DNA of 64,000 nucleotides from Acidobacteriota bacterium (GTDB taxonomy: Bacteria; Acidobacteriota; Holophagae; Holophagales; Holophagaceae), in the NCBI GenBank assembly GCA_021794095.1, contig JAJYRN010000003.1, forward strand, positions 62,001 through 126,000, written 5' to 3'. Below are positions 29,272 through 33,546 of the stretch, piece by piece (position 1 is the first letter of the stretch; every line of letters begins with the position of its first letter). The notes beneath the pieces are model-generated. The model was not told the DNA's origin and did no database searches. It worked only from the letters and a program-made list of their open reading frames with translations. The translations under genes were made by a program, and so were the position numbers.

Positions 29272-29415
29272 GAAGCCTCGGCGAAGGTGACGTGCAAGCT
29301 CCCAGTGTAGAAGCCCCCGGGCTCCCCGCCCAGTCCCCGGGAACCCTGGGGGATCTTGCCCCATCCTTGGGGTAGCCCGGCGGGCGATCACCGGGTTTTT
29401 GACCGGAGGTACCCC

Positions 29416-29943
29416 ATGCTACCCATCGCCTCCTTCCTCCTGCTGCCGGCTGCCCTCCAGGCGCCGGCGCCCCTTCCGCCGCTGGTGGATGCCAAAACCC
29501 TGCCCGGCGTTCCGGGCCCCCTGGTGCCCCACTATCCCGATCCAGCCTTCGGCCCTGGCGCCTCCAGGATGGATCTGATCATCCGGGAGCGGGCCCGGCG
29601 CGGCATCAACATTCCCGCCGCGGCCCTGCCCGCAGGCTCCTGCCGGGTATCGGACCAGGTGGCCGGCGTCAGTGGCTGGAAGGCCTACCGGGTGGATGTT
29701 CCCGCCGGAGGCGGCTTCAAGGTCCGGCTTCATAGCCCCCAGGAAGGCTGGTTCCTGGTGAAAGTGGTGGACGCCTGGGGCCGGGAGGGGGCCGGGATGC
29801 TCCAGAACCGGATCCCCACGGGCAACCCGGAAGCCTCCTACCGGAATCCCAAGGCCTCGCAAAGCACCGTTTTCATCATCGTGGACACCCAGGACACCAG
29901 CCTGCAGGGAACCCCCTACACGCTGACCCTCACGCGGAATTGA
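29416..29943 (+). CDS. Hypothetical exported protein
   Basis: About 175 residues from the ATG at 29416, which has GGAGGT upstream. A short signal peptide (MLPIASFLLLPAALQAPA) predicts export. The mature part is rich in beta-type segments such as YRVDVPAGGGFKVRLHSPQ and GWFLVKVVDAWGREG, ending with TPYTLTLTRN. This resembles small beta-sandwich domains, but no family is recognised. It lies immediately upstream of coaE, in the same direction. Confidence 0.6.
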   Translation: MLPIASFLLLPAALQAPAPLPPLVDAKTLPGVPGPLVPHYPDPAFGPGASRMDLIIRERARRGINIPAAALPAGSCRVSDQVAGVSGWKAYRVDVPAGGGFKVRLHSPQEGWFLVKVVDAWGREGAGMLQNRIPTGNPEASYRNPKASQSTVFIIVDTQDTSLQGTPYTLTLTRN

Positions 29944-29966: not shown

Positions 29967-32051
29967 ATGCGGACAGCGCCCTTCCCCCTGCTTGGCCTCA
30001 GCGGCGGCATCGCCTCAGGCAAAAGTCATGTGGCCGCGCGGATGGCAGAGCGGGGCTGGGTGGTGGTGGATGCGGATGCCCTGGCCCGGGAGGCGGTGGC
30101 CCCAGGCAGCGCGGGACTGGAAGCCCTGATCGAGGCCTTTGGCCCGGAGCTGCTGGCTGCCGACGGGACGCTGGACCGGACCCGCCTCGGGGCCCGCGTG
30201 TTTTCGGATGCGGCCGCACGGCACCGGCTCAACGCCCTCCTGCATCCCCGCATCGAGGCCCTGCTGGCCGCCCGGGTGGCCGCCCTGCCCCCCGGCACCC
30301 GCGGAGCTGTGCTGGATGCGGCCCTCTGGGTGGAACGGGGCCGCGCCCACCACTTTGATGCTTTCTGGACCGTGGACGCGCCGGAGGCCCTGCGCCTCAC
30401 CCGCCTCGCGGCCCGGGACGGCCTCGACCTGGCCGCGGCCCGCGCCCGCCTGCGCGCCCAGGCCCGCGCGCCCGAGCGGGCGCTGCATGCGGACCGCGTG
30501 ATCCTCAACGATGGCCGGGATCTCGCTGGAATCCTCGACGAGGCCGAAGCCGCCCTTCTGGCAGACTGGAAGATCCGCCGCGCGCGGACCTGGAGATCAC
30601 CCATGCCCGCACCTTTCACGCCCGACCAGCTCCACGCGATCCTGGCCGCCTTGCTCGCCCGGGGCGGGGACTATGCCGAGGTGTTCGTCGAACGTCGCCA
30701 GGCCCATGCCCTCGGCATGGACGACGGCCGCATGGAGGATGTGCTCGCCGCCGAGACCTTCGGCGCCAGCCTGCGGCTGATGGAAGGCGAGGCCACCCGC
30801 TTTGCCGACCTCATCGCCCCCGCCTACGACGAACTGCTGGAGGCGGCCCATACCCTGGCCGCGCCGGGCCAGGGGCTGCCCGCGGCGCTGCCTGACTTGG
30901 TGCAGGAGACCTATCCCACACCCAGTCCCGTGGCCGTGGATCCCGAGACCGTGCCCCTGGCGGAGAAAGTCGCGCTGGTGCGTCGGGCCGAAGCCCTGGC
31001 CCGGGAACATGCGGAATCCCTGCGCCCGGGCGCCCTCAAGCAGGTGTCCGTCGGCTATGGCGACAGCACCCAGCGGGTGTGGATCGCCTCGGCGGAGCCC
31101 GAGGGCAGCGGCTGGATGACCCGCGCCACCGAGGATCACCGCACCCAGGGCGTGCTGCGCCTGAACGTCACCGCCGGGGACGGCCAGCAGCTCCAGACCG
31201 GCTACCAGGCCCTGGGCGAGACCCGCGGCTTCGAGCTGTTCACCGACGAGGCCGTGGCCCGCACCGTGAAGGAGGCCGTGCGCCTGGCCATCCAGGCCCT
31301 CGACGCCCAGCCCGCTCCGGCGGGCACCTTCCCGGTGGTGCTCAGCAGTTCCGCCGGCGGCACCATGATCCACGAAGCCTGCGGACACGGACTGGAAGCT
31401 GATCTGGCCCTCGCGGGCATGTCCGCCTTCGCCGGCAAGCTGGGCGAGAAGGTGGCTGCTGACGGCGTGACAATCATTGACGATGGCACCCTGCCCCACA
31501 AACGCGGCAGCCAGGCCGTGGACGACGAGGGCAACCCGGTCAGCCGCGTCGTCCTCATCGAGGATGGCGTGCTCAAGGCCTACCTCCAGTCCCGCAAGAC
31601 GGCCCGGAAGATGGACACGGAGCCCACGGGCAACGGCCGCCGCGAGAGCTACCGGCACCTGCCCATCCCCCGCATGCGGAACACCTTCCTGGCCCCTGGG
31701 AGCGAGGCCCCCGAGGCCATCCTGAAGGATCTGGATCGCGGCCTGCTGGTCACCCACATGGGCGGCGGCCAGGTGGACACCGTCACCGGCAACTTCGTGT
31801 TCCAGGTGACCGAGGGCTACTGGGTGGAGAAGGGCGAGCGGAAGTACCCCGTGAAGAACGCCACCCTCAGCGGGTGCGGCCCCGAGGTGCTGAAGCAGCT
31901 CACCCGCATCGGCAACGATCTCCACCACTTCGACATCGGCACCTGCGGCAAGGACGGCCAGGGCGTGCCCGTCAGCGACGCCCTGCCCACCATCCTCTGC
32001 CCCGCCCTCGTCGTCGGCGGCACCGCCGAACCCCTGCCCAGCGTGATTTGA
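29967..32051 (+). CDS. coaE: Dephospho-CoA kinase domain fused in frame to TldD
   Basis: One uninterrupted frame of 694 residues. Residues 1-210 are a dephospho-CoA kinase, the last step of coenzyme A synthesis: P-loop GLSGGIASGKSHVAARM, VVVDADALAREAV, and HPRIEALLAARV. Residues from about 213 are a complete TldD metalloprotease subunit. No stop codon separates them. The start at 29967 has GGAGG seven bases upstream. An internal ATG at 30603 with its own GGAG could start TldD separately, so products may be the fusion, TldD alone, or both. The pairing has no obvious metabolic logic. Confidence 0.75.
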   Translation: MRTAPFPLLGLSGGIASGKSHVAARMAERGWVVVDADALAREAVAPGSAGLEALIEAFGPELLAADGTLDRTRLGARVFSDAAARHRLNALLHPRIEALLAARVAALPPGTRGAVLDAALWVERGRAHHFDAFWTVDAPEALRLTRLAARDGLDLAAARARLRAQARAPERALHADRVILNDGRDLAGILDEAEAALLADWKIRRARTWRSPMPAPFTPDQLHAILAALLARGGDYAEVFVERRQAHALGMDDGRMEDVLAAETFGASLRLMEGEATRFADLIAPAYDELLEAAHTLAAPGQGLPAALPDLVQETYPTPSPVAVDPETVPLAEKVALVRRAEALAREHAESLRPGALKQVSVGYGDSTQRVWIASAEPEGSGWMTRATEDHRTQGVLRLNVTAGDGQQLQTGYQALGETRGFELFTDEAVARTVKEAVRLAIQALDAQPAPAGTFPVVLSSSAGGTMIHEACGHGLEADLALAGMSAFAGKLGEKVAADGVTIIDDGTLPHKRGSQAVDDEGNPVSRVVLIEDGVLKAYLQSRKTARKMDTEPTGNGRRESYRHLPIPRMRNTFLAPGSEAPEAILKDLDRGLLVTHMGGGQVDTVTGNFVFQVTEGYWVEKGERKYPVKNATLSGCGPEVLKQLTRIGNDLHHFDIGTCGKDGQGVPVSDALPTILCPALVVGGTAEPLPSVI
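30603..32051 (+). CDS. tldD: TldD metalloprotease, possible internal start within the CoaE frame
   Basis: TldD works with PmbA/TldE to cleave peptides, for example in antitoxin decay and microcin or modified-peptide maturation. The zinc-protease motif HEACGHGLEAD (HEXXXH) is present, with GGTMI before it, and DIGTCGKDGQGVPVSDA and CPALVVGGTAEPLPS near the end. From the ATG at 30603 it has 482 residues, the usual TldD length, and GGAG lies seven bases upstream. It reads in the same frame as coaE, so independent translation is likely but not certain. pmbA follows directly. Confidence 0.8.
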   Translation: MPAPFTPDQLHAILAALLARGGDYAEVFVERRQAHALGMDDGRMEDVLAAETFGASLRLMEGEATRFADLIAPAYDELLEAAHTLAAPGQGLPAALPDLVQETYPTPSPVAVDPETVPLAEKVALVRRAEALAREHAESLRPGALKQVSVGYGDSTQRVWIASAEPEGSGWMTRATEDHRTQGVLRLNVTAGDGQQLQTGYQALGETRGFELFTDEAVARTVKEAVRLAIQALDAQPAPAGTFPVVLSSSAGGTMIHEACGHGLEADLALAGMSAFAGKLGEKVAADGVTIIDDGTLPHKRGSQAVDDEGNPVSRVVLIEDGVLKAYLQSRKTARKMDTEPTGNGRRESYRHLPIPRMRNTFLAPGSEAPEAILKDLDRGLLVTHMGGGQVDTVTGNFVFQVTEGYWVEKGERKYPVKNATLSGCGPEVLKQLTRIGNDLHHFDIGTCGKDGQGVPVSDALPTILCPALVVGGTAEPLPSVI

Positions 32052-32068: not shown

Positions 32069-32131
32069 ACCACGAAGACGGGAAGACCACGAGCCAACCT
32101 GTCTTTTTCGTGGTCTTCCTGTCTTCGTGGT
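32069..32131. repeat. Long hairpin between tldD and pmbA
   Basis: Arms 32069-32092 and 32108-32131 pair over 24 bp with a single mismatch that is a G-U pair in RNA; the loop is 15 bases. The units are CACGAAGAC/GAAGACCACGA. It looks like the hairpin at 20692. Lying inside the tldD-pmbA pair, it could cut expression of pmbA or protect the upstream message. Confidence 0.85.
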
Positions 32132-32157
32132 TCAAGCCTTTTCCCGAGATGCCCGAC

Positions 32158-33546
32158 ATGACTGATCCCTTTCGTTCCTTCATTCCCGAATCCCTCGAGG
32201 CCCGGCTCCAGGACGGCATCGCTCACGCCATGAAGCTGGGCGCGGCGGGCGCGGAAGCCTTCATCTCCGTGTCCCGCTCCCGCAAGGCCAAGGTGCAGAA
32301 CGGCGCCCTGGAGGATCTCAGCGCCTCCAAGCGCGGCGGCCTCGGCGTCCGCGTGATCCGCGCCGGAGCGAAGGGCTTTCGCACGGGGCTGGCCACCACG
32401 AGCGATCTGGCGGCGGCGAACTTCCGCGGCCTCTTCGCCCAGGCCTGGGAATTGAGCGCCCTGGGTGACGAGGATCCCTGGCTGCGGCAGGCGGAGCCCT
32501 CGGGCCGCGATGACCTGCCGAGCCGCTTCGATCCCGGGGTGGACGCCCTCACGCCGGAACAGCGCATCGAGCGGGCCCTGACCCTCGAAGCCGAGGCCCG
32601 GAAGGCCTCCTCGAAGGTGGCCGCCGTGCGGGAGTCCGCCTGGAGCGATGGTTCCGGCGCCAGCCTCCTCCTCACCCAGAAGGGGGTGCGGGCCGCGGAT
32701 CTCGGCTCCAGCTGCTCGGCCTCCATCGAGCTGGCCGTGGCGGATGGCGAGGAACGACAGGCCGCCTGGCATTGGGATGTGGCCCGCCGGCCCACGCTGG
32801 ATCTCGCCGCCATCGGCGCCGAGGCCGCCCTCAAAGGCGAGCGCAAGCTGAACCCGGGGCGCCTGGCGGCCGGGAAGTACCCGGTGGTTCTCCATCCGGA
32901 AGTGGCCGTGGACCTGCTGGGCATCGTGGCCGGCATGCTCGACGCCGAGTCCGTCCTCAAGCAGCGCAGCCTCTTCGCGGGCAAGCTGGGCGAGACCATC
33001 GCCTCGCCGCTGCTGACCCTTCTGGACGACGGCCGCCTCGCCGAGGCGCCCGGCTGCCCGGCTCTGGGCACCGAGCCCTGGGACGGCGAAGGCCTGCCCA
33101 CCCGCCGCAATGTCCTCATCGAAGGTGGCGTGCTAAAGACCTACCTGCACACCCTCAAGACCGCCGCAGAGATGGGCGTGGCGCCCACGGGCAGCGCCGG
33201 ACGCGGCATGGGCAGCCAGCCCGGCGCCACCACCTTCAACCTTTTCCCCCTGGCCGGGCAGACGGCGCCCGAGGCCCTCTACCGCATGGCCGGCGAGGGC
33301 GTCCTCATCACCGAGATCATGGGCCTGCACACCGTGGATCCCGTGAGCGGTGACCTGAGTGTGGGGGCCAGCGGCATCCGCATCCGGGGCGGCGTGCTGG
33401 CCGAACCCGTGGACAAGCTCACCTTCGCCGGCAACCTGCGCGACTTCCTCACGCGCATCGCGGCCGTGGGCAGCGATCTCCACTGGTACGGAAGCAGCGC
33501 AGGGCTCAGCCTCCTGATCGAGGACATCGCCCTCGGAGGCGCCTGA
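32158..33546 (+). CDS. pmbA: PmbA/TldE family protease subunit
   Basis: Non-catalytic partner of TldD in the TldD/E protease. About 462 residues. Typical blocks are AGAEAFISVSRSRKAKVQNG, GLGVRVIRAGAKGF, VVLHPEVAVDLLGIV, GSAGRGMGSQPGATTFNL, ITEIMGLHTVDPVSGDLSVG and the C-terminal DLHWYGSSAGLSLLIED. It lacks the HEXXXH of TldD, as expected. Start could be 32149 or 32158; GAG lies eight bases before the latter. Its stop overlaps the next start (TGATG). Confidence 0.92.
   Translation: MTDPFRSFIPESLEARLQDGIAHAMKLGAAGAEAFISVSRSRKAKVQNGALEDLSASKRGGLGVRVIRAGAKGFRTGLATTSDLAAANFRGLFAQAWELSALGDEDPWLRQAEPSGRDDLPSRFDPGVDALTPEQRIERALTLEAEARKASSKVAAVRESAWSDGSGASLLLTQKGVRAADLGSSCSASIELAVADGEERQAAWHWDVARRPTLDLAAIGAEAALKGERKLNPGRLAAGKYPVVLHPEVAVDLLGIVAGMLDAESVLKQRSLFAGKLGETIASPLLTLLDDGRLAEAPGCPALGTEPWDGEGLPTRRNVLIEGGVLKTYLHTLKTAAEMGVAPTGSAGRGMGSQPGATTFNLFPLAGQTAPEALYRMAGEGVLITEIMGLHTVDPVSGDLSVGASGIRIRGGVLAEPVDKLTFAGNLRDFLTRIAAVGSDLHWYGSSAGLSLLIEDIALGGA

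Follow-up and report, generated by a model that had tools for sequence, protein, structure and literature searches.

A coaE-tldD gene fusion conserved across the Holophagaceae, with a probable internal start for free TldD

A single open frame in the genome of an Acidobacteriota bacterium of the family Holophagaceae runs from a dephospho-CoA kinase (CoaE) into a TldD-type protease. Is this frame a local accident or a stable gene, and is one protein made from it or two? The window analysed was a stretch of 64 000 nucleotides, and all coordinates are those of the window. The frame extends from ATG 29967 to TGA 32049-32051, nested within a longer open frame beginning at TTG 29940, with zero stops at the junction of the two halves. 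The following features were delimited.

29967..32051, + strand: CoaE-TldD fusion open reading frame (694 amino acids, about 74 kDa), defined by the open frame and its conservation in relatives
29991..30515, + strand: dephospho-CoA kinase domain (PF01121), residues 9-183, from the Pfam match
30603..32051, + strand: TldD half, also the predicted internally started TldD (482 amino acids, about 51 kDa)
32110..33546, + strand: TldE/PmbA partner open reading frame, whose real start is likely ATG 32149 or 32158
29356..29943, + strand: upstream hypothetical open reading frame (195 amino acids), ending 23 nt before coaE

The initial annotation had described a complete CoaE and a complete TldD without an intervening stop. 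This was borne out by the frame and by the Pfam domains of both halves, all of which scored above their gathering cut-offs. A frameshift or readthrough at the junction was ruled out, there being no stop to bypass. PF01121 was matched with 153 bits (cut-off 27) over profile positions 3-176 of 180, and TIGR00152 with 129.6 (cut-off 65.55). The motifs of the kinase (Walker A GGIASGKS, DAD, HP, RD and NDG) were found when the sequence was aligned with outgroups and with CoaE of E. coli; they are also retained in the fused relatives. AALW replaces PLL, and AAL is found in other Acidobacteriota as well. Structure matches of the first half were several dephospho-CoA kinases, 2f6r being part of the comparison. 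In the genome of the window (2.99 Mb, rated 99% complete) the fused frame is the sole CoaE match; the CoaE half is therefore presumed to be an active dephospho-CoA kinase.

In the second half, PF01523, PF19290 and PF19289 were matched at residues 237-685 with 25.5, 38.5 and 244.7 bits, respectively. The best solved relative is E. coli TldD (5nj5, E 5e-83). The zinc-site residues used for comparison (HExxxH and Cys) were taken from PMC5810440. HEACGH (residues 469-474) and C660 are conserved, and the HEACGH and TCGKDGQ motifs align with E. coli TldD and are invariant in 30 relatives. The cut-off of the NCBIfam equivalog PRK10735 was missed (307 bits vs 513). Judged by homology, the TldD half is a TldD-type protein standing outside the E. 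coli-type equivalog. Two TldD/TldE-type matches were found in the genome, namely the fusion and the adjoining downstream gene, and the TldD of the fusion is expected to pair with this adjacent TldE. Since the CoaE motifs and the TldD zinc ligands are intact, both halves would be expected to work. The space between tldD and tldE holds an inverted repeat (32069-32131, 24-nt arms, 96%); when up to 3 mismatches are allowed, its arm sequence is found 20 times across the genome, so this is a dispersed palindromic repeat.

Conservation was then examined in the family, identified as Holophagaceae by named records (Geothrix and relatives). The sample comprised 71 family genomes outside genus g2 with a CoaE match. 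Seventy loci were read; genome G045, cut by a contig end, is not among them. Locus L005, which has Ns inside TldD, was left out of the 69 readable loci, a few of which are truncated on one side by a contig end. The fusion is open in 69/69 readable orthologous loci from ten genera of this one family, so the question whether relatives keep the fusion was answered positively at every readable locus. Walker A and HEACGH are 458-460 residues apart in almost all of the 30 loci for which the spacing was measured; in L003 the figure is 469. A scan of public genomes gave full-length matches in Geothrix type strains (G. fermentans, G. rubra, G. limicola and others) and in Holophagaceae metagenome-assembled genomes. 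Another 17 matches (Thermotogaceae, Clostridia and similar) cover the TldD part only, with no CoaE in the flanks examined. In the other two families that make up the class, coaE occupies an open frame of its own (201-264 codons), and no tldD was seen within 1.5 kb of it in 10 loci checked. No equally long CoaE frame was found outside the family among the matches listed from 396 genomes across the phylum. Of the loci with long CoaE frames elsewhere in the phylum (455-604 amino acids), nine were retrieved and five read. In each of these five the extra length is a chance GC-rich overhang in front of an ordinary CoaE, without TldD, and they were rejected as fusions. In a related genus, g18 (L089, L090, L100), tldD-tldE and coaE lie unfused on one strand within about 10 kb. 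Taken at the level of sequence, the CoaE-TldD fusion is a fixed family-wide architecture and not a local accident.

The same hypothetical neighbour upstream of coaE was found in g2, g6, g11 and some loci of g1, the genus of the window. The motif GGCACAAT recurs roughly 20-30 nt upstream of the apparent coaE start at many g1 loci (e.g. L011, L026, L057), with GTG, CTG or TTG at the apparent start in place of ATG. Many Geothrix-like species may therefore have a promoter close to coaE and a weak start codon for it.

Because no stop separates the halves, the fusion product is unavoidable wherever coaE is translated. Whether a second product could be made was addressed at the start of the TldD half, where two further features lie.

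30592..30595, + strand: internal Shine-Dalgarno (SD) sequence GGAG, 7 nt before ATG 30603, preserved through use of AGA, a rare Arg codon
30555..30596, + strand: constrained block at the 3' end of coaE (42 nt), defined by synonymous conservation

In g1, 45/45 species use AGA or AGG for the Arg codon that contributes AG to GGAG, as against 4.3% AGA/AGG (0.56% AGA) among the other Arg codons of the same frames (n=2,510); these counts come from related, non-independent species and are not probabilities. This column is the extreme of 51 Arg columns, the next having 57% AGA/AGG. Genera with Ser at that position use AGT or AGC, so that GGAG is retained, and g6 has a shifted variant, AAGGA. Of 67 aligned internal ATGs, 63 have an SD-like match 4-10 nt upstream; seven control conserved Met columns have none. 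Compared with randomised synonymous sequences, the mRNA around ATG 30603 is less folded (mean z +0.81 in g1); at control Mets z is negative. The rare-codon score along the frame has its maximum at the internal start. The codon conservation points to selection, and the use of different amino acids to reach the same nucleotides is hard to explain without selection for initiation, although selection on GGAG could serve another purpose. ATG 30603 is thus a predicted in-frame internal start whose SD and start codon appear to be kept beyond the needs of coding. The proposal that ATG 30603 with GGAG is usable as a TldD start was supported by this conservation of the SD, the ATG and the codons in most genera.

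The highest synonymous conservation of the whole frame falls within the 30555-30596 block, whose pattern is CTT CTG (G/T)CA NAC TGG A(A/G)G (G/A)TC CGC CGC GCG CGG ACC TGG AGA. Rare CTT and GCA/TCA codons are kept, GCA/TCA even when the amino acid changes. The first part of the block is also present in other genera, has a changed sequence in g9, the genus in which the SD too is lost, and was found a single time in almost all genomes of the genus that were searched. An RNA hairpin (CTTCTGG/CTGGAAG) is possible in many sequences; it was rejected, as covariation was unsupportive: an Ala/Ser change breaks a pair, uncompensated, in 20/69, and RNAalifold gave no consensus structure for the block. 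The block was also rejected as a promoter, no -10-like sequence being seen by eye.

We consider it likely that this is a fixed Holophagaceae gene fusion with a second, internal start giving free TldD in most genera. Translation from ATG 29967 would run through coaE into tldD and yield the 74-kDa CoaE-TldD, which would be both the only dephospho-CoA kinase of the cell and a complete TldD able to pair with the adjacent TldE. In most genera, the second ribosome-binding site in the 3' end of coaE (GGAG, ATG 30603) would add a free TldD of about 51 kDa, and TldD could in this way be made in excess over CoaE. In g9, the second start would have decayed and left the fusion alone. Going by these sequence patterns, it is very likely that most of the family makes two products, the 74-kDa fusion and the 51-kDa TldD, both of which would accumulate, and that g9 makes only the fusion.

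The strongest competing explanation is a one-time ancestral loss of a stop, with a functionless fusion tolerated while the internal start carries the role of TldD; we rate it as a serious possibility, somewhat short of an even chance. The short linker and the ATG and SD placed where a stand-alone TldD would be expected to start, kept in most genera, agree with it. So do reduced genomes of genus g2 in this family, three of which (about 1 Mb) are without TldD and TldE. Where coaE was matched, in two of them (L042, L043; about 1.2 Mb), it is diverged and stands alone, ends at the linker position and adjoins the same upstream gene as the coaE of the window; CoaE therefore does not need TldD. In an rpoB tree g2 falls within the family, with modest support, which makes loss of the tldD half likelier, though not certain, than a primitive state. 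Against a tolerated accident, zero split forms were seen in the 69 readable loci, even though a stop could be regained by few base changes. Genus g9 also stands against it: the internal SD is lost in 5/5 genomes and the internal ATG is replaced by GGC or GTG in 2/5, but the fusion, TldE and the TldD motif are all retained. The next candidate starts in g9 lie 16 to 43 codons downstream, SD sequences having been scored at conserved Met columns only. The fusion is probably the sole source of TldD in g9, as far as its sequences indicate. The SD is also missing in one g5 genome; given this and g9, the internal SD is not essential. The accidental stop loss put forward in the initial annotation may therefore describe the ancestral origin but not the present state, which is fixed across the family, and its tolerance thanks to the internal start fails as a general explanation.

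Beyond the preferred reading of a fixed fusion with a second start, the covalent link itself might be functional. A bifunctional CoaE-TldD/E complex would then let CoA supply and proteolysis influence each other, and the 42-nt block would tune the ratio of fused to free TldD. This extension is regarded as unlikely. It is quite unlikely that just the 74-kDa protein is made and that GGAG/AGA and the rare codons slow the ribosome at the domain boundary and so aid folding. Rare codons are indeed clustered at this boundary, but slowing leaves unexplained the exact 7-nt GGAG-ATG spacing, the change of Arg to Ser via AGT, the AAGGA variant of g6 and the reduced structure around the ATG. Cleavage of the fusion by a protease, giving separate enzymes, would act on the following segment.

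30576..30617, + strand: linker, in which the C-terminal helix of CoaE finishes (~residue 206) and a brief segment of low confidence leads on to TldD in the AlphaFold2 model

AlphaFold2 predicted a helix at 187-206, pLDDT under 50 at residues 205-213 and the next helix at 219-229; CoaE and the N-terminal part of TldD were mostly confident, and the C-terminal part of TldD was poorly modelled (mean pLDDT 64.5). The short low-confidence linker would suit cleavage, but nothing positive speaks for it. TldD/E probably requires at least 15 unfolded residues at the N-terminus (PMC5810440), which makes self-cleavage at a short internal linker improbable. Cleavage is accordingly held to be very unlikely. 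A sequencing error or mis-assembly that erased a stop is refuted by the same open junction in 69 loci of separate genomes, Geothrix type strains included, and its probability is practically nil.

Comparable systems are known for each part of this arrangement. In-frame internal starts give two proteins from bacterial genes such as cheA, clpB and infB. The pIGRK Rep gene is likewise reported to give two proteins via an in-frame internal start (PMC6854812). As in these four cases, an internal start codon would let one frame yield a long and a short product; the short one is predicted here to be a complete second enzyme, whereas in those cases it is a truncated isoform. Mycobacterial CoaE is fused to UPF0157, reported to help folding (PMC2765170), and likewise sits in a longer protein with an extra domain, but its partner is not a protease. 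In the animal bifunctional CoA synthase (PPAT-DPCK, PDB 2f6r), dephospho-CoA kinase is also joined to another enzyme; that partner catalyses the preceding step of the same pathway, whereas here it is an unrelated protease. The zinc motif and full domain set of the TldD half are shared with the heterodimeric metalloprotease TldD/TldE of E. coli (5nj5; PMC5810440), and TldE is encoded beside it, but E. coli TldD is a separate protein without a kinase domain. A literature search found neither dephospho-CoA kinase together with TldD nor Geothrix with TldD. CoaE domain fusions and in-frame internal starts are both known; the present gene combines the two.

Throughout this family, a presumably essential biosynthetic enzyme is permanently joined to a protease whose function in the cell is poorly known. 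Natural comparisons are at hand, with the internal start lost in one genus (g9) and the protease half probably lost in reduced genomes. Annotation pipelines are warned that one gene probably yields two products. The role of TldD/TldE outside peptide-antibiotic maturation becomes testable in culturable Geothrix.
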